DNA of 64,000 nucleotides from Pyrinomonadaceae bacterium. Its GTDB lineage: Bacteria; Acidobacteriota; Blastocatellia; Pyrinomonadales; Pyrinomonadaceae. Positions 39,915-48,856 of this stretch are shown piece after piece; within the stretch, counting starts at the first letter, position 1; each line of letters begins with the position of its first letter. The DNA lies in the NCBI GenBank assembly GCA_017983495.1, contig JAGOBH010000001.1, positions 124,001 through 188,000 on the forward strand, in the 5' to 3' direction. A program made the position numbers and the translations under genes. Under the pieces are notes generated by a model that ran no database searches, was not told the origin of the DNA, and saw only the letters and a program-made list of their open reading frames with translations.

Positions 39915-41411
39915 TCAGCCTTTCGGCGGCAAGCCGTCCGAGTAGATAAAGACGTGCCAGCACGCGTTGGTACCGTATTCGATCAGGGCGTCAAGCTTAT
40001 TGTCGTTTTCCATCTCCGCGAGTTTATCCATCACGTAATTCTGCTCTTCGGCCGTCATGTGCTTGCGGGCGAGGTCAAACGCGCAGCCCGACGTGTGCGG
40101 CGGCAAGCTGCCCTCGCCGCGAACCTTGAACGAATTGGCGTTGGTCGCGTTGAGGCTGATCTGATAGTCCATCGAACGAGTCAGCGACGTCACACGCAGC
40201 GGCCGATTGTATTTGGCGTAATAGTGCTCGGCGAGTTCGATCAGGATCGGTTTTGCCCGCTTATTGAACATTCGCAGCAGACGGACGCGCATTTGTTTGC
40301 GGTCGCTCGGGTTGTTCAGGTCGTACTTTTGCCCGGCGAAATTGCTGGCAAGCGTTGACAGGAAAGTGTACTTCGGATGTCCCGGCACTATTTCATCCCG
40401 AACATCAGGAAATGCGAACGTCATGAACGGCCCGTCACCGGCACTGCCGCCGACGCTGAGATAGTAGCTTCTGGTCGCCATCGGCATCTCGATCAATTCC
40501 TTGTTGAGCCGTTTTTCGGCAAGCTCACCAAAATCCAGCGGCTGACGGTAGCCTGTTGTTTTCATCTCAGCGAGCTTTCTCTTTTGTTTGACCACGCCGT
40601 CGCCGAATAGCTCTTTAGGAACATTCAGGCCCGCAGGGCGGATGCCCGTTTCGCCGCTTCGCGCTTCGAGCGATTTTGCCTGCCGGTCGGCGAGCAGTGC
40701 GGCCGAAACGTTCAGATCGGCCTCGTCGGTGTTGTCAGATTCGACCTTTACGTCGCTAACCGTCTTTGCGTCGATCTCTTTTTCCTCGGTTTCCCACGAT
40801 GATATCAGGTCGTCAAGATCCTCTTCGTCCTCACCGCCGAGCGGATCGATGACACGCATCGGTATCACCTTTGACGCGAGGATCGGCGGTGGAGTCTTGC
40901 CGCCCGGGCCAACCGTTCCGCCGCCGTTTCGCGAAGCAAAGAGTAGAGCGATCACGGCGCCGAAAATTATCACGAACGTCATTGCCGCCGCCGCGATGAG
41001 CATCATCGGATAACCGCCGACCTTTTCCGACGGGGCTGCCGCAGCAGTCTGCGGAACTATCTTCGGTGCCGCAGCCGGCTCGGGAACCGCGGTCGGCTGG
41101 ACATATGACGCGGCTTCCATCTCGACCGTTATGGTCGTGTCGCTGCCGATCTTGAGCACGTCGCCGTTCTTGAGCAAACGCGGGCCGCCCGAGACCTTGT
41201 TCCCATTCAGAAACGTGCCGTTGAGCGAATCTTCGTCAACGACCAGCAGCTCGTCTTCGTCCCAGAAAAATGTTGTGTTCCTGCGGGAGAGCCCCGAGTC
41301 GCCGATAACAAGCTGTGACGAATCGGTCCGCCCGATGGTCAGCTCGTTATCGAGCGAAACCGAGCGGTCACCGTCCGGGGCCTGGATCTTTAAAACGGCT
41401 TTATTCATCAA
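39915..41411 (-). CDS. FHA-domain membrane protein with C-terminal M15/LAS-type peptidase domain
   Basis: A 498-residue fusion. The N-terminal FHA domain (residues about 5-95) has LTIGRTDSSQLVIGDSGLSR and DSLNGTFLNG, the pThr-binding loops. A Pro/Ala linker is followed by a membrane helix (MMLIAAAAMTFVIIFGAVIA, about 136-158) and an outer part. The C-terminal domain carries the LAS-peptidase pattern: RVTSLTRSMDYQ, PPHTSGCAFDLA with H-x6-D (about 435-442), a downstream Glu and the final ACWHVFI His. M15/LAS enzymes cut peptidoglycan cross-links. Joining a pThr sensor inside the cell to a wall peptidase outside is unusual. It overlaps the small zinc-ribbon gene by four bases. Confidence 0.78.
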   Translation of the reverse strand: MMNKAVLKIQAPDGDRSVSLDNELTIGRTDSSQLVIGDSGLSRRNTTFFWDEDELLVVDEDSLNGTFLNGNKVSGGPRLLKNGDVLKIGSDTTITVEMEAASYVQPTAVPEPAAAPKIVPQTAAAAPSEKVGGYPMMLIAAAAMTFVIIFGAVIALLFASRNGGGTVGPGGKTPPPILASKVIPMRVIDPLGGEDEEDLDDLISSWETEEKEIDAKTVSDVKVESDNTDEADLNVSAALLADRQAKSLEARSGETGIRPAGLNVPKELFGDGVVKQKRKLAEMKTTGYRQPLDFGELAEKRLNKELIEMPMATRSYYLSVGGSAGDGPFMTFAFPDVRDEIVPGHPKYTFLSTLASNFAGQKYDLNNPSDRKQMRVRLLRMFNKRAKPILIELAEHYYAKYNRPLRVTSLTRSMDYQISLNATNANSFKVRGEGSLPPHTSGCAFDLARKHMTAEEQNYVMDKLAEMENDNKLDALIEYGTNACWHVFIYSDGLPPKG

Positions 41412-41635
41412 TGATGATGGTCATCATCGGCTACTTCTTTCAGCTTTGAGATGTCGAGCAGACGAGCAAATTCATCGAAATGGAACATCGTCTCGTCCTT
41501 ACAATAATCGCAAAAGAACGTCACATCTTCGCCGAGATACATATCCTTAAGATGATATGCGATGAAGCAGCCGTAACATCGCTGAATGCGTTTGCCGAAT
41601 TCGGCAATAACTTCTTCTGAAACGTGATCTGTCAT
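41408..41635 (-). CDS. Small zinc-ribbon-like protein with His-rich tail
   Basis: A 75-residue protein with two cysteine pairs, C-x2-C in RCYGCFIAY and C-x2-C in FFCDYCKDE, the spacing of a zinc ribbon, and a C-terminal DDDHHH. No family is recognised. It starts 83 bases from the histidine leader on the other strand and overlaps the FHA gene by four bases, so it is probably translated with it. The zinc-ribbon reading is from cysteine spacing only. Confidence 0.7.
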   Translation of the reverse strand: MTDHVSEEVIAEFGKRIQRCYGCFIAYHLKDMYLGEDVTFFCDYCKDETMFHFDEFARLLDISKLKEVADDDHHH

Positions 41636-41677
41636 AAACTGTCCGCGATTTTACCACATTCATTTTTTGGACTCCGC

Positions 41678-41707
41678 TTGCAAAACCATTTCCTATGTGT
41701 TTTTAAT
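41678..41707 (+). promoter_or_regulatory. Candidate promoter of the histidine operon
   Basis: TTGCAA (41678-41683) and TTTAAT (41702-41707) are 18 bases apart. Transcription would start only a few bases before the leader peptide ATG at 41718, which has no obvious RBS, so the leader would be nearly leaderless. This is a tentative assignment. Confidence 0.45.
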
Positions 41708-41717
41708 ACTAGTAACG

Positions 41718-41786
41718 ATGTATCAGGGAATTTCTCAAATCCATCATCTCCACCATCATCACGCGACACATTCGCGCGTGAACTGA
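41718..41786 (+). CDS. hisL: Histidine operon leader peptide HisL
   Basis: A 22-codon frame starting ATG 41718 and ending with TGA at 41784-41786. The peptide has seven His in positions 9-18 (HHLHHHHATH), coded by both CAT and CAC. It lies between the candidate promoter and hisG and is followed by a terminator-like hairpin just before hisG. A run of histidine codons in a short frame ahead of a his operon is the hallmark of ribosome-mediated attenuation: scarce His-tRNA stalls the ribosome and prevents terminator formation. The frame is too short to appear in ordinary gene calling. The seven His codons in ten are hard to explain otherwise. Confidence 0.88.
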   Translation: MYQGISQIHHLHHHHATHSRVN

Positions 41787-41827
41787 TCTCGTTGTTCTAA
41801 CCAACTCGTAAATTAGTTTTAATACAA

Positions 41828-41876
41828 ACGCCGCGAAACTTGAAAAAGTCTCGAGGGCGTCGCTTTGTTGTTTTTT
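41828..41876 (+). terminator. His operon attenuator terminator
   Basis: ACGCC (41828-41832) pairs with GGCGT (41856-41860), CGA (41834-41836) with TCG (41851-41853) and ACT (41838-41840) with AGT (41847-41849), with a loop TGAAAA. A T-rich run TTTGTTGTTTTTT follows (41864-41876) and ends four bases before the hisG ATG. The hairpin lies 41 bases after the leader peptide stop. AGTTT at 41815-41819 can pair with AAACT (41836-41840) and may be part of an antiterminator. Confidence 0.75.
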
Positions 41877-41880
41877 GATC

Positions 41881-42735
41881 ATGAAATTAAAAATAGCTAT
41901 ACAAAAATCAGGAAGACTGGCCGATAATTCGACGGCAATGCTCCGAAAATGCGGCATCGGATTCTCAAACGGCCACGGAAAGCTCAGGACCGAAGCTGCG
42001 GACTTTCCGCTCGAGATATTCTTTCTACGCGATGACGACATACCCGATTACGTCGCTGACGGCGTAGCCGATGTCGGCATCGTCGGCGAAAACATCGTCG
42101 CGGAGGGCGGAAAGCCCGTCGACGTGATCGAAAAACTCGGTTTCGGAAATTGCCGGCTCTCGCTGGCGATACCCAAAGGCGAAAGTTACTCGACGTTGAC
42201 CGAACTTGCCGGAAAGCGGATCGCAACTAGCTATCCAAATATTCTGGGCACGTTTTTTGCCGCACGCGGGATCTCCGCCGATATTCACGAGATCAGCGGT
42301 TCGGTCGAGATTGCTCCGTCGATCGGCCTTGCGGATGCGGTTTGTGACCTCGTAAGCTCGGGCAGCACGCTTTTTTCAAACGGGCTCCGCGAGGTCGAAA
42401 CCGTGATGAATTCCGAAGCGGTGCTTATCGCTCGCAGAGATCTCAGTGCGGACGCCTCGGCGATCCTCGACAAACTCCTTTTTCGCATCCGCAGCGTCAA
42501 GGCCGCAGCCCAAAATAAATACATTCTTCTCAACGCCCCGACCGACAAGGTCGATGAGATCACACGGCTTCTGCCCGGCATGCGCAGCCCGTCGATGATC
42601 CCGCTCGCAACGCCCGGTTGGGTTTCGATGCATTCGGTTGTCGGTGAGACAGACTTTTGGGAGGTCGTGGATTCCCTCAAAAGGGCCGGTGCCGAGGGCA
42701 TTCTAGTATTGTCGATAGACCAGATGATCAGGTAA
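41881..42735 (+). CDS. hisG: ATP phosphoribosyltransferase HisG (long form)
   Basis: First enzyme of histidine synthesis, joining ATP and PRPP. The 284-residue protein has the HisG start KLKIAIQKSGRLADNSTAML, the LRDDDIPDYVADGVADVGIV and GENIVAEG segments, ADAVCDLVSSGSTL and the C-terminal regulatory domain (RSPSMIPLATPGWVSMHSVV). It is the long, feedback-regulated form, so no HisZ is needed. The ATG at 41881 is used; a TTG at 41875 is in the terminator T run. No RBS is visible because the T run lies directly upstream. Confidence 0.95.
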   Translation: MKLKIAIQKSGRLADNSTAMLRKCGIGFSNGHGKLRTEAADFPLEIFFLRDDDIPDYVADGVADVGIVGENIVAEGGKPVDVIEKLGFGNCRLSLAIPKGESYSTLTELAGKRIATSYPNILGTFFAARGISADIHEISGSVEIAPSIGLADAVCDLVSSGSTLFSNGLREVETVMNSEAVLIARRDLSADASAILDKLLFRIRSVKAAAQNKYILLNAPTDKVDEITRLLPGMRSPSMIPLATPGWVSMHSVVGETDFWEVVDSLKRAGAEGILVLSIDQMIR

Positions 42736-42741
42736 ACACAA

Positions 42742-44040
42742 ATGAAAATAGTTAAATATCCGTCAAAAGAAACATGGGGAGCACAGCTTAAGCGACCGGC
42801 CCTCGACACACGATTTCTCGAACGAACCGTCGCCAATATCCTCGCCGACATTCGCGACAACGGCGACAAGGCCCTGCGTCATTGTGCCCGCCATTTCGAC
42901 AAGGTCGAACTGGACGAATTTCTCGTGACCGGGGACGAATTTCTCGAAGCCGAATCTCTCGTCTCAGTGGACATCAAGGAGGCCATCGCGGTAGCAAAGG
43001 CCAATATTGAGAAGTTTCACGCGGTACCCGACGAACGATCAAACGTTATCGAAACCACCGCCGGAGTTTTTTGCTGGAAAAAGACCGTCGCGATCGAAAA
43101 GGTCGGCCTTTATATTCCCGCGGGCAGTGCTCCACTGTTTTCCACGGTCCTGATGCTTGTTGTTCCCGCAAAGATCGCAGGTTGCCGCGAGATCGTCGTC
43201 GTCTCACCTCCAAATACCGAGGGAAAGATCGATCCGATAACGCTCTATGCCGCAAAGCTATGCGGTGCGACCAGCGTGTACAAGATAGGTGGAGCACAGG
43301 CGATCGGTGCACTCGCCTACGGCACCGAGACGGTCCCGAGCGTTTACAAGATATTTGGTCCGGGCAATCAGTTTGTGACAGAGGCAAAGCTGCAGGTCCT
43401 GCGTTCCGGCGTGGCGATCGATATGCCCGCCGGGCCGTCGGAGGTTGCGGTATTAGCGGACGAAAGCTGCGTCCCGGCATTTGTTGCGGCCGATCTTTTG
43501 TCGCAAGCCGAACACGGCCCGGACAGCCAGGTAGTGTTAGTGTCGACGTCCGAGACCGTCATCAACGAAACCCTCGCTGAGGTCGAGCGGCAGATCGAAT
43601 TGCTGCCGCGAAAAGCAATCGCCGCCGCCGCGATCCAAAATTCGACGGCGATTCTTGTCAAAACGATCGCCGACGGTGTCGAGATAATAAACGACTACGC
43701 ACCCGAGCACCTCATTATCGCAACGGACAACGCTGAAACGGTCGCCGAACAGATCGTTAATGCGGGGTCGGTTTTCATCGGCAATTACTCGTGCGAGAGT
43801 GCCGGTGATTATGCCTCGGGCACCAATCACACATTGCCGACGGGCGGTGCGGCACGGGCTTACAGCGGCGTTTCCGTCGCGAGTTTTACCAAGACGATCA
43901 CGTTTCAGCGGCTGACCCCCGACGGCATCCGCAACCTCGGCCCGACGATCGAGACAATGGCCGCCGCCGAGGGGCTTGATGCGCACAGGAACGCGGTCGC
44001 AATGCGACGCGAATGGATCGGAGGCCGCGATGACATTTGA
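42742..44040 (+). CDS. hisD: Histidinol dehydrogenase HisD
   Basis: Oxidises histidinol to histidine in the last two steps, using NAD+ and zinc. The 432-residue protein has YIPAGSAPLFSTVLMLVVPA, KIGGAQAIGALAYGTETVP, KIFGPGNQFVTEAKLQV, AGPSEVAVLADE, LSQAEHGPDSQ and the GTNHTLPTGGAARAYSGVSV segment with catalytic and zinc-binding residues. Six bases after hisG; its end overlaps the hisC start by 11 bases. Length is standard. Confidence 0.96.
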   Translation: MKIVKYPSKETWGAQLKRPALDTRFLERTVANILADIRDNGDKALRHCARHFDKVELDEFLVTGDEFLEAESLVSVDIKEAIAVAKANIEKFHAVPDERSNVIETTAGVFCWKKTVAIEKVGLYIPAGSAPLFSTVLMLVVPAKIAGCREIVVVSPPNTEGKIDPITLYAAKLCGATSVYKIGGAQAIGALAYGTETVPSVYKIFGPGNQFVTEAKLQVLRSGVAIDMPAGPSEVAVLADESCVPAFVAADLLSQAEHGPDSQVVLVSTSETVINETLAEVERQIELLPRKAIAAAAIQNSTAILVKTIADGVEIINDYAPEHLIIATDNAETVAEQIVNAGSVFIGNYSCESAGDYASGTNHTLPTGGAARAYSGVSVASFTKTITFQRLTPDGIRNLGPTIETMAAAEGLDAHRNAVAMRREWIGGRDDI

Positions 44041-45097
44041 GCTCGAACGGCTTGTCCGCAGAAACATCAGAAATCTGAAGCCGTATTCGTCGGCCCGTTC
44101 GGAGTTTGTGGGAACGGCTGAGGTGTTTCTTGACGCCAATGAGAACGCCTTCGGTTCACCGGCAGGCGGCGGATTTAATCGTTATCCCGACCCGCTCCAG
44201 GCCGAGTTGAAAGGCCGTATCGCTCCGATGAAAGGCGTCGACTCGTCGCAGATATTCGTCGGGAACGGCAGTGACGAGGCTATCGATCTGCTGTTTCGCA
44301 TTTTTTGCGAGCCGGCTCGGGACGAGGTGATCGTATGCCCGCCGACTTACGGAATGTACCGCGTGTCGGCTGACATCAATGACGTAACGACCAAGAATAT
44401 TCCGCTGACCAAGGATTTTCAGCTCGATGTGCCGTCGATCCTCAACGGCATCAGCGATCACACGAAACTGATCTTTATCTGCTCGCCTAATAATCCGACG
44501 GGCAATCTGATGAATCGCGAGTCCATCGCGGAGATAGCCTCGAGATTCCCTGGCCCATGCGTGGTCGACGAGGCATATATTGACTTTGCGGCTGCGCCGT
44601 CGATCACCGCGGAACTCGCGTCTTTGCCCAACCTCGTCGTTCTGCAAACGTTCTCGAAAGCGTGGGGAATGGCCGGCCTTCGCGTCGGTCTGGCTTTTGC
44701 CGGCAAAGAGATCATCGATCTAATGAATCGCGTAAAGCCGCCCTACAACGTCAGCGGCATTGCACAGCGTGCCGTTATTGATGCTCTCGACGATGAACGG
44801 TCTGTTCGCGAATGGACGGCAATGGTGCTTGAGCAACGAGCCGCTTTGAGCGAATCGCTCACCGGATTCGATCTTGTCGAGACGATCTATCCCTCGGACG
44901 CAAATTTTCTTTTGGTCAAGGTCGCGGACGCCGAGGCCATTTATCGCTATCTGGTTGCTGAGGGCATCGTTGTCCGCAATCGAAGTAATGTTGAGCTTTG
45001 CGGAGGCTGCCTCCGCATAACGGTCGGAACACCGAACGAAAATCGACGGCTTATCGAGGCCCTTACGAAGATCGAGCGGCAACTCGCAGCCGAATGA
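44030..45097 (+). CDS. hisC: Histidinol-phosphate aminotransferase HisC
   Basis: PLP enzyme that makes histidinol phosphate from imidazole-acetol phosphate and glutamate. From ATG 44030 ([13 protein letters not shown]) the protein is 355 residues. Family motifs: [58 protein letters not shown] with the PLP-binding Lys, and [11 protein letters not shown]. The start lies within the end of hisD; an upstream in-frame ATG (43976) would extend into hisD and is less likely. Confidence 0.95.
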
Positions 45098-46209
45098 GAG
45101 AAATTATGAAGAAAGTACTATTCATCGATAGAGACGGAACTCTGATCCGTGAACCTGATGATTTCCAGGTCGATAGTCTCGAAAAATTACGGTTCATACC
45201 CGGCGTGATCACCGCTCTTGCTAAGATCGCCCGTGAAACCGATTTCGTGTTGGCGATGGTCACAAATCAGGACGGGCTGGGCACGGCAAGCTTTCCGGAG
45301 GAGACGTTTCATCCGGCGCATGATCTGATGATGCAGACGCTGCTCGACGAAGGCATCGAGTTTGCCGATGTATTTATCGACCGCACACTTCCGGCCGAAA
45401 ATGCACCGACACGCAAACCGGATGTCGGAATGCTGTCCCGGTATCTGACAGGCGATTACGACCTCGCCAATTCGTATGTCATCGGCGACCGGGAGACCGA
45501 TATCCAGCTTGCCGCAAATCTCGGGGCAAACGCCATCTATCTGCGCAATCCGCAGTTTCCGGTCGATACGGCGGACAATGATGGGGTCGTTGCAGTCGAT
45601 AGTTGGACCGACATCTATGAGCTTTTGCGGTACCGTCCACGCCGGGTCGAACATCGCCGGACGACCAAAGAGACCGACGTTGCGATAGATCTCGTTCTTG
45701 ACGGAACAGGAAAGTCCGAGATCGCAACCGGCATTTCGTTCTTTGATCATATGCTCGAACAGATTTCGCGGCACGGCGGCCTCGATCTGACGATCGCCGT
45801 AAAGGGCGATCTTGAGGTCGACGAACACCACACTATCGAAGATGTCGCGATCACACTGGGCGAGGCTTTTTCGATGGCGTTGACCGACAAACGCGGGATG
45901 GAGCGTTACGGGTTTTGTCTGCCGATGGATGACTGCCTGGCGCAGGTCGCGATCGATTTTGGTGGGCGAAACTGGATCGTGTGGGACGCCGAATTCAAAC
46001 GTGAGAAGATCGGCGAGATGCCGACCGAAATGTTCTTTCATTTCTTTAAGTCGTTTAGCGACAAAGCGTTATGCAATCTGAATATCAAAGCGGAGGGTAC
46101 CATCGAGCACCATAAGATCGAGGCGATATTTAAGGCGTTTGCCAAGTCGATAAAAATGGCCGTCCGCCGCGAGGGAAGCGAGTTGCCGTCCACAAAGGGA
46201 GTCCTGTGA
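45094..46209 (+). CDS. hisB: Bifunctional histidinol-phosphatase / imidazoleglycerol-phosphate dehydratase HisB
   Basis: A 371-residue fusion of two enzymes. The N-terminal HAD phosphatase has FIDRDGTLI with D12 and D14, [16 protein letters not shown], and [16 protein letters not shown]. The C-terminal dehydratase, from about residue 190, has [32 protein letters not shown], and [19 protein letters not shown] with the manganese-binding His residues. The ATG at 45094 overlaps the hisC stop as ATGA, like other junctions of the operon; a Met at 45106 gives the more common N-terminus [11 protein letters not shown]. Fused HisB is known from enterobacteria and Bacteroidetes and some others. Confidence 0.95.
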
Positions 46210-46790
46210 AAGTAGGAATCGTAAAATACAACGCCGGTAACACCGTTTCGGTGATCAACGCCCTGAAACGCCAGGGCATCGACCCGGTCGTCACGGATGA
46301 CGCTGAAACGCTCCGGTCGGCCGATAAGGTGATCTTTCCCGGCGTTGGCGAAGCCTCGACCGCGATGCGATATCTCCGGATGCGCGGCCTCGATATCGTC
46401 ATACCGTCACTGACGCAGCCCGTTCTCGGCATCTGTTTGGGTATGCAGCTGATGTGTGCGTTTTCCGAGGAGAACGAAACCGCTTGTCTTGGAATTTTGC
46501 CGCATCGTGTGAGGCGATTCGTATCTGACAGACTCAAGATCCCGCACACCGGTTGGAACCGGATCGGGCAACTGCGGTCGCCGCTGTTTGACGGCGTAGG
46601 CGAGGGCGAACGAGTCTATTTTGTTCACGGCTACTATGTCGAGACCGGTGCAGACACCACCGCAGTTACAGATTACGGCCTTGACTTTAGTGCGGGCGTG
46701 GGTCGGGGCAATTTTCACGCGATACAGTTTCACCCCGAAAAATCGGGCGATGCAGGGGCTCGGATCTTAGCGAATTTCCTAAAAATATGA
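46206..46790 (+). CDS. hisH: Imidazole glycerol phosphate synthase glutaminase subunit HisH
   Basis: Class I glutamine amidotransferase that supplies ammonia to HisF. The 194-residue protein starts [20 protein letters not shown] and has [29 protein letters not shown] with the catalytic Cys, and [15 protein letters not shown] with the catalytic His and Glu. Start overlaps hisB stop by four bases and the end overlaps hisA by four. Confidence 0.96.
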
Positions 46791-47509
46791 TCGAAATTAT
46801 TCCCGCAATGGACCTCATCGGCGGCAAATGCGTGCGTTTGACCCAGGGCGATTTTTCGCGTGAGACGGCCTACGCCGACGATCCGCTTGAGACAGCAAAA
46901 CGGTTTGAGGCGGCCGGACTTTCGCGTCTTCATATGGTTGACCTCGACGGCGCCCGTTCGGGTGCACCGGCAAATCTTCATGTGCTAAGCCGCATCGCCT
47001 CGGGCACGTCGCTGATTGTCGACTACGGCGGCGGGATCAAGTCAGAGGCGGACGTCGCCGCCGTGTTCGATGCCGGAGCCTCGATCGTAAATATCGGCAG
47101 CCTTGCGGTTCGTCAGCCTGAGATGTTTCTTGGTTGGGTCGAAAAATTCGGCGGCGACAAGATATTGCTCGGCGCCGACGCCAAAAATGGAATGGTGGCG
47201 ATAGACGGATGGCAGACTGAGACCACGGAACAGATCCTGGCATATCTCCGTAAGTTTGCTGATCGTGGCGTAACGAGGGCCTTCGTCACCGACATCGCGA
47301 GCGACGGAGCGATGGCGGGACCGTCGGTAAAGCTCTACCGCGAGATCACGGCCGCTGTGCCGGCGATCGGCCTGATAGCCAGCGGCGGCGTTCGTTCGAC
47401 CGCCGACATCGACGAACTTGAGAGCATTGGGTGCAAGGGCGTCATTATCGGAAAGGCTCTCTACGAGCAGACCATCAATTTGGAGGATCTGGCAAAGTAT
47501 GTTGGCTAA
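46787..47509 (+). CDS. hisA: ProFAR isomerase HisA
   Basis: Phosphoribosylformimino-5-aminoimidazole carboxamide ribotide isomerase, a TIM barrel of 240 residues. [20 protein letters not shown] carries the catalytic Asp; then [42 protein letters not shown] with the second catalytic Asp, and [16 protein letters not shown]. It overlaps hisH by four bases and hisF by eleven. Confidence 0.96.
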
Positions 47510-48254
47510 ACGAATCATTCCATGCCTCGACGTCAAAGACGGCCGGACCGTCAAGGGCACAAATTTTGTCGGCCTTCGCGACGCCGGCGACCCGGTCGAG
47601 CTGGCGGCCCGATATTGTGCCGAGGGCGCAGACGAGCTGGTCTTGCTTGATATCTCGGCGACAAATGAACGCCGCAAGACGCTAACCGCACTCGTGCGGG
47701 ATGTCGCTGCCGAGATCAATATCCCATTTACTGTCGGCGGCGGCATCTCGACTGTCGACGATATTGGTGCTTTGCTCGATTCGGGTGCAGACAAGGTTTC
47801 GATAAATACCGCGGCGGTAAAAGAACCGGAACTTCTAACTGCAGCCGCGGCTAATTTTGGTTCGCAATGTATCGTTCTTGCGATCGACGCCCGAATGACG
47901 CCGGACGGGTGGCGCGTCTATCTGAACGGCGGCCGGGTCGCGACCGATCTGGATGCGGCCGAATGGGCAAAGCGCGGCGTTGAACTCGGTGCGGGCGAGA
48001 TATTGCTGACGTCGATGAACGCCGATGGTACGAAGGACGGTTTCGAGATCGGCTTGACCCGAGAGATCTCGACGAACCTGAAGGTGCCGGTCATTGCCTC
48101 GGGCGGTGCCGGAAGTATGGACGATTTTGCCGACGCTTTTGCACTGGGCCGGGCCGATGCGGCTCTCGCGGCAAGCGTTTTTCACTACGGCGAAATAGCG
48201 ATCCCGGATCTGAAAGCTTTTCTCGCGATGCGCGGGATCGAGGTAAGGTTATGA
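47499..48254 (+). CDS. hisF: Imidazole glycerol phosphate synthase cyclase subunit HisF
   Basis: TIM-barrel cyclase partner of HisH, 251 residues from ATG 47499. [20 protein letters not shown] has the catalytic Asp; then [56 protein letters not shown] with the second Asp, and [14 protein letters not shown]. The start lies in the end of hisA; the frame is open upstream but that part belongs to hisA in another frame. Confidence 0.96.
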
Positions 48255-48856
48255 ATCTGAATTACGAAAAATACGCTGACGGCCTCATCCCGGCGATCGT
48301 CCAGGACGCAAAGACCGGGTCAGTTTTGATGCTCGGCTTTATGAACGCTGAGGCGGTCGCGAAAACGCACGAAACTCGTCGCGTCACATTCTATTCCCGT
48401 TCCCGGCGGCAGCTTTGGACAAAGGGCGAGACAAGCGGCAATTTCCTCGAGCTGGTCTCGATCACCGCCGACTGCGATCAGGACACCGTGCTTATCCAAG
48501 CGACGCCGGCCGGCCCGGTCTGTCACACGGGAAACGACACTTGCTTCGGCAACGTCGATGAATCGGATCCTAACCCGCTCGACGCCCTCCGGGAACTAGA
48601 GAAAACCATCGACGATCGCCGGCACAGAATGTCCGAAGATTCGTACGTCGCCTCGCTTTTCAAAGACGGCATCAACAAGATCGCCCAAAAGGTTGGCGAG
48701 GAAGCTGTCGAATTGATCATTGAGGCAAAGGACAACGACCTCGAACGCTTTACGTCCGAGGCCGCTGATCTGCTGTTTCACTATCTGGTTTTGTTAAGAG
48801 CAAAAGATGTATCGATCAGTGACGTGGTGACCACGCTTAGATCCCGTAGGCGGTGA
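48251..48856 (+). CDS. hisIE: Bifunctional PR-AMP cyclohydrolase / PR-ATP pyrophosphohydrolase HisIE
   Basis: A 201-residue fusion of HisI and HisE. HisI part: [60 protein letters not shown] with the zinc cysteines and His. HisE part from about residue 110: [32 protein letters not shown] and [20 protein letters not shown]. It ends the operon. Its stop is directly beside the lpxA stop on the other strand, with no room for a separate terminator. Confidence 0.96.

Follow-up and report, generated by a model that had tools for sequence, protein, structure and literature searches.

A histidine biosynthesis operon in a bacterium of the family Pyrinomonadaceae (Acidobacteriota) is preceded by a short open reading frame dense in histidine codons, and the locus raises the question of whether this operon is controlled by attenuation and, if so, how the element is related to the attenuators of other phyla. 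Histidine attenuators have been described for Proteobacteria and some Firmicutes (PMC9413887), and hisS and hisZ leaders are known in bacilli (PMC2965389). A search of open-licence papers found no description of attenuation of the histidine or the trp operon in Acidobacteria, in line with the remark in the first-pass annotation of this DNA that such an element is not commonly described there. An amino acid attenuator is recognized by a short leader ORF with a run of the regulatory codons directly upstream of the operon, by a predicted intrinsic terminator between this ORF and the first gene, and by a mutually exclusive antiterminator that forms with a ribosome on the regulatory codons. The present analysis covers the window, the whole stretch of 64,000 nucleotides, which is part of contig C3 of a 4.0-Mb assembly. 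Sequence and comparison establish the operon, the leader ORF, and the hairpins, as well as the conservation and co-variation found among relatives; together with folding models, they indicate, with a probability of about 0.9, that ribosome-mediated attenuation of transcription controls the operon at this locus.

The Leader Reading Frame and Its Operon

The leader ORF (Table 1) has His at 7 of its 22 codons (codons 9, 10, 12–15, and 18). Among the 1,308 short ORFs of the window (8–60 codons, both strands), it is the only one with at least 5 His in any 12 codons, the runner-up having 4. A 22-codon frame with seven His codons directly before a full his operon was what the first-pass annotation had reported, and both its coordinates and its description are confirmed. 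The identities of the genes from hisG to hisIE come from curated NCBIfam models. A divergent ORF of 75 amino acids (41408–41635, − strand) adjoins the his promoter; it contains two CxxC motifs and a DDDHHH tail and has no match among NCBIfam models, and a similar sequence is also found 5′ of the leader in several members of the genus.

Table 1. Features of the his leader and operon (positions in the window)
Feature	Position	Strand	Basis or remark
Predicted leader promoter, −35 box TTGCAA	41678–41683	+	sigma-70-like consensus only
Predicted −10 box TTTAAT	41702–41707	+	predicted transcript start ~41713–41716 from consensus spacing
Leader peptide ORF	41718–41786	+	MYQGISQIHHLHHHHATHSRVN, then stop; 22 codons; ORF reading and 34/34 family loci
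Element 1, CACGCG, 5′ arm of hairpin P1	41760–41765	+	within His codons; swap test
Element 2, UUCGCGCGUGAACUGAU, 5′ side of antiterminator	41771–41787	+	overlaps leader stop codon; co-variation, folding
3′ arm of P1, CGCGUG	41775–41780	+	inside element 2
3′ side of helix P2, AUUAGUUU	41812–41819	+	partner GAACUGAU at leader stop; includes AGTTT; co-variation, folding
Element 3, ACGCCGCGAAACUU, 5′ arm of terminator	41828–41841	+	first 10 nt (41828–41837) used by antiterminator
Element 4, AAGUCUCGAGGGCGU, 3′ arm of terminator	41846–41860	+	
Terminator hairpin, ACGCCGCGAAACUU..AAGUCUCGAGGGCGU	41828–41860	+	−14.0 kcal/mol
Antiterminator	41771–41787 with 41812–41837	+	17 bp, occupying terminator 5′ arm; folding model
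U-rich tract, UUUGUUGUUUUUU	41864–41876	+	after terminator; hairpin and U-rich tract in 31/34 relatives
hisG, long form (HisG with C-terminal domain)	41881–42735	+	TIGR00070 and TIGR03455 above cut-off
hisD	42742–44040	+	TIGR00069
hisC	44018–45097	+	start approximate; TIGR01141
hisB, bifunctional	45100–46209	+	start approximate; NF003937 above cut-off
hisH, hisA, hisF, hisIE	46206–48856	+	overlapping or closely spaced; TIGR01855, TIGR00007, TIGR00735, NF002747

Conservation and Distribution

A profile search places long-form hisG in 33 of 119 Pyrinomonadaceae genomes, and the 34 loci whose upstream regions were read are those from this search together with a contig-edge copy of hisG in G033 (L022). 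In all 34, the operon directly follows a short leader ORF that contains a His-codon run; these leaders are mostly 15–26 codons long and start 141–202 nt before hisG. A comparison of the hisG upstream regions of relatives had been suggested earlier as a check, and its outcome is that the His-codon run and the alternative hairpins are kept throughout the 34 loci, with no relative seen among them that keeps the operon and has lost the His codons. Relatives with a short-form hisG (35–40% identity) have no such His leader before hisG, nor do two relatives from the class with a more distant long-form hisG (L020 and L021). L021 comes from a different family of the class; there, the gene directly before the distant long-form hisG is YerC/TrpR-like, or HisR-like (L021:951–1445), and L020 has a similar sequence; members of this gene family have been named HisR in other phyla (PMC9413887).

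A covariance model built from the alignment of the 34 leaders has matches in 35 of the 119 family genomes, one copy in each, and recovers two leaders from outside the training set. One, MSGNTFHVNHLHHHAHAHSRMN in G017, precedes a hisG that is cut by the contig end. The other, MLNILKTKSVHHHRLNIHAD in G120 (L173:3370–3520, − strand), precedes hisS, the histidyl-tRNA synthetase gene (TIGR00442), in a genome that has no long-form hisG. The model has no match in the other genomes of the 119 that are without the operon. In a phylum-wide scan, the element was found in 13 of 396 genomes, all of them Pyrinomonadaceae, and in no other family. About half of the species in the genus of the window (G001–G040) are without hisG and hisD, including near-complete genomes in 2–8 contigs (G027, G023, and G014), which suggests either histidine auxotrophy by loss or a patchy gain of the operon.

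Promoter and Start of the Transcript

Most of the 34 relatives have TTGCAA or a close variant ∼39–41 nt 5′ of the start codon of the leader. In the window, 10 nt separate the end of the predicted −10 box from the leader ATG, and the spacing is alike in most relatives. No Shine-Dalgarno sequence of at least 4 bases was found before the leader in the window, and runs of this kind (at least 4 bases) precede the leader at just 4 of the 34 family loci; within the window, Shine-Dalgarno-like runs are present before hisD, hisI, and a BamA-like gene. Because of the spacing of the promoter boxes and the scarcity of Shine-Dalgarno runs, the leader ORF is predicted to have either no 5′-untranslated region (leaderless) or one of a few nucleotides at most, the two being equally likely. 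The earlier reading of a leader that has no ribosome-binding site and begins near the transcript start therefore holds across the family, as a prediction.

Alternative Hairpins and the Proposed Mechanism

The elements listed in Table 1 can combine in alternative ways: elements 1 and 2 form P1, element 2 pairs with AUUAGUUU and element 3 in the antiterminator, and elements 3 and 4 form the terminator. A predicted intrinsic terminator, with a hairpin and a U-rich tract, lies between the leader ORF and the first gene at 31 of the 34 loci. The U-tract is imperfect, with three bases (CGC) between the stem and the U-rich stretch and two interruptions by G, and is followed by GATC and then by the ATG of hisG; a hairpin with a T run that ends four bases before hisG was thus rightly described. 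The same annotation had proposed that AGTTT competes with the terminator arm. Its position (41815–41819) was correct, but the proposed pairing with the terminator was not supported: the conserved partner of AGTTT is GAACU/AACUGAU at the leader stop codon (helix P2), and it is UUCGCGCGUG, in the last part of the leader ORF, that competes with the terminator arm.

From this arrangement we infer the start of the transcript, its termination, the stalling of the ribosome, and the response to histidine. Transcription would start a few bases 5′ of the leader AUG, and a ribosome would initiate on the leaderless, or nearly leaderless, leader ORF and trail the RNA polymerase. When His-tRNA is ample, the ribosome would reach the UGA and cover element 2, so that element 3 would be free and the 3:4 terminator would stop transcription before hisG; if no ribosome is present, P1 would sequester element 2, with the same termination as the result. 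When His-tRNA is scarce, the ribosome would stall with a His codon (codons 10–15) in the A site and element 1 covered, and element 2 would pair with the 3′ side of P2 and the first 10 bases of the 5′ arm of the terminator; this antiterminator would block the terminator and allow the operon to be transcribed.

At one locus, L016 (genome G060), the leader and P1 are kept and there is no recognizable terminator. In its place, directly before hisG (L016:2356–2496, − strand), a short inverted repeat around GGAG can be seen by eye, and this locus has possibly switched to translational control. An extension of such control to the other loci, in which the hairpin would hide the start of hisG and stalling would open it, is improbable. 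The distance of only 20 nt from the end of the hairpin to the hisG AUG, the imperfection of the U-tract, and the hairpin-like stretch in L016 are in its favor, but hisG in the window has no Shine-Dalgarno sequence to be hidden, and the widespread succession of a hairpin and a U-rich tract is a further argument against it.

Co-variation of the Helices

In a MAFFT alignment of the 34 family leaders, 76.5% of the antiterminator cells are paired, as compared with 22–48% when slid by 1–3 columns, and individual pairs vary in a compensating manner (alignment pair 83:152 is CG in 14 leaders, UA in 8, and UG in 3; pair 80:155 is GC in 25, GU in 4, and AU in 2). It should be noted that 49 of 500 within-column shuffles of this alignment reach the observed percentage, so that the excess of co-variation is only modest; the shuffles come close because most of the pairs are strongly conserved. 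RNAalifold predicts no pairs on the same alignment.

Around P1 the alignment contains too many gaps, and a swap test that needs no alignment was used instead, with a clearer outcome. In it, the helix partner from each sequence is compared with partners from other genomes in 5000 permutations. With relatedness uncorrected, the own partner binds better in each helix, the counts per 5000 being 0 for P1, 0 for the 2:3 pairing, 17 for P2, 0 for the whole antiterminator, and 0 for the terminator. A control with elements 1 and 3, each of which should match element 2 and not the other, gives no signal (4823 of 5000). Compensating changes can also be recognized by eye: CGCGU is found with ACGCG in L013, L113, and L114, CGCGC with GCGCG in L118, L124, and L125, and CACGC with GCGUG in L120 and L127.

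These observations bear on a further explanation, that the ORF encodes a functional His-rich, metal-binding peptide and that the hairpin is its ordinary terminator, with no coupling to hisG. The ORF is real and of unusual composition, and it has its own predicted promoter and a terminator, all of which is in favor of this reading. However, conservation is limited to the His run and the RNA arms, the ends of the peptide vary, and the ORFs of L012 and L014 stop early yet keep the RNA arm CGCGUG; the co-variation of the arms and the position of the leader, always before hisG and once before hisS, also argue against this explanation, which is very improbable indeed.

Folding with a Ribosome Placed on the Leader

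The attenuation mechanism was modeled by folding the transcript as it would be just before the 3′ arm of the terminator is made, with a ribosome footprint that extends 13 nt, counted from the first base of the codon in the A site. For the window, the fold with no ribosome gives 0.90 for P1 and 0.08 for the 2:3 pairing. With the A site at codon 9, the two are half and half; 2:3 is 0.70 at codon 10 and 0.83 at codons 12–15, where the 17-bp antiterminator is formed (−13.5 to −16 kcal/mol), and no antiterminator is formed with the A site from codon 17 to the stop. On this codon-by-codon placement, the switching codons are the His codons, codon 16 (2:3 of 0.65) being a partial exception. A ribosome on the His codons is computed to give an antiterminator that excludes the terminator in 33 of the 34 family leaders, L016 being the sole failure. 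Over the 34 leaders, the mean number of antiterminator pairs is 7.8, as against 3.5 with dinucleotide-shuffled downstream sequence; taken by itself, the window has a fold with no clear advantage over shuffled sequence (z −1.4), and its antiterminator score is attained in 4 of 40 shuffles. Once both of its arms have been made, the terminator is thermodynamically preferred even if a ribosome has stalled, and the switch must therefore be kinetic and dependent on timing. Other attenuators are likewise kinetic.

Relationship to Known Attenuators

The element has several features in common with hisL of Escherichia coli and Salmonella (Rfam RF00514, His_leader), including a leader with His codons directly before hisG, a terminator, alternative helices, the same gene order from hisG on, and a bifunctional hisB. 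It differs in that the His run is broken by other codons and extends into the first hairpin, and in the prediction that the leader ORF begins within a few nucleotides of the transcript start, whereas that of hisL does not. RF00514 has no match up to an E value of 5 in positions 41000–42500 and none at its gathering score in L002, L114, L124, L037, or L043, although the E. coli hisL control (L133) scores 131.6 bits; a search of the window with Rfam found nothing. The first-pass annotation had called the element the classical attenuator of Enterobacteria. This is appropriate for the mechanism, since conservation at all 34 loci, co-varying helices, and an antiterminator on folding in 33 of the 34 suggest that it works like the ribosome-mediated his attenuator, but not for the RNA family. 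The mechanism is thus of a known kind in a new lineage, in a phylum where his attenuation has hardly been described, and an alignment and covariance model are now given for an element that is absent from Rfam.

The histidine attenuators of Firmicutes also combine His-codon leader peptides with a terminator and an antiterminator before his genes or hisS (PMC9413887, PMC2965389), but these belong to another phylum and the likeness is known at the level of architecture. A transcript that begins with its leader ORF, which in Pyrinomonadaceae is a prediction, has precedents in the leaderless leader peptide of Sinorhizobium meliloti trpL (PMC7298713) and in those of the mycobacterial polycysteine attenuators, as cited in PMC13236596 (Canestrari 2020); the regulatory codons in these are Trp or Cys as opposed to His. 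For Flavobacterium psychrophilum, clues to leader-peptide attenuation before amino acid operons have been reported, as has a conserved 5′ element with structure upstream of hisG (PMC9723704). Leaders before hisG in Chitinophagaceae and other Bacteroidota (e.g. MKQFTHNHHHHFLPNG) resemble those of Pyrinomonadaceae in being rich in His and close to the promoter, and in 24 of 69 the 1:2, 2:3, 3:4 logic can be read as CTTACC/GGTAGGC/GCTTACC/GGTARGC. Their helix sequences are different, however, the peptide is mostly shorter, and the promoter has TAnnTTTG in place of TTGCAA and a TATAAT-like box.

Origin of the Operon and Its Attenuator

The best matches to HisG outside the family are from Bacteroidota (∼60–65% identical), and most of the nearest Bacteroidota hisG loci have His-rich leaders, 69 in all, the majority a few bases 3′ of a TAnnTTTG box. 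In phylogenetic trees, the family sequences fall into a single clade among Bacteroidota both for HisG (100/99) and for HisD (99/88). A transfer of the his operon between the two phyla is likely because a different hisG, of the short form, is present elsewhere in the class and even within the family. The trees leave its direction open, since a tree with Bacteroidota as one separate clade is not rejected (AU p 0.547 for HisG and 0.177 for HisD); from the breadth of distribution only, the donor would be Bacteroidota-like and the recipient the ancestor of the family.

The operon has its nearest relatives in Bacteroidota, with leaders that are also rich in His. Operon and attenuator were therefore probably transferred between the phyla as a unit and acquired by the family ancestor from such a donor. 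Joint transfer is favored by parsimony. The RNA sequence does not distinguish it from a new origin of the attenuator: the family covariance model scores Bacteroidota leaders at up to 20.6 bits, barely above the 16.3 bits of E. coli hisL. These scores demonstrate no similarity in RNA beyond the His run and would also suit an attenuator that arose independently in Pyrinomonadaceae after the operon had arrived. This origin is rather unlikely, in that the presence of His-rich leaders near the promoter of most of the nearest Bacteroidota hisG genes makes an operon lacking an attenuator the less likely cargo. For joint transfer, a fuller account, on which our judgement is evenly balanced, is that in the passage from Bacteroidota to Acidobacteriota the promoter was replaced and the helices changed in sequence, whereas the logic of stalling and switching was kept, as was a leader that begins at the very 5′ end of the transcript, and that the element was later placed before hisS. 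The locus offers a case in which to ask how an RNA switch withstands a move from one phylum to another.

The genome that contains the window also has, upstream of trpE (L131; G000:C2:73864–75252, − strand), a leader, MNLFSTKFHQTSFAHTGLGWWRISASVGF, with tandem Trp codons; no leucine-rich leader was seen in the upstream region of leuA. The trpE leader has a TTGACA/TACAAA promoter, with 7 nt between the end of the −10 box and the ATG, and a downstream hairpin, ACGCCGC..GCGGCGTTTTGCATTTT, and is a probable trp attenuator as judged from these features. Leaders with two or three closely placed Trp are found before most of 30 trpE loci in the family. With its his and trp leaders, this genome points to a lineage whose leader peptides seem to begin at the transcript 5′ end.
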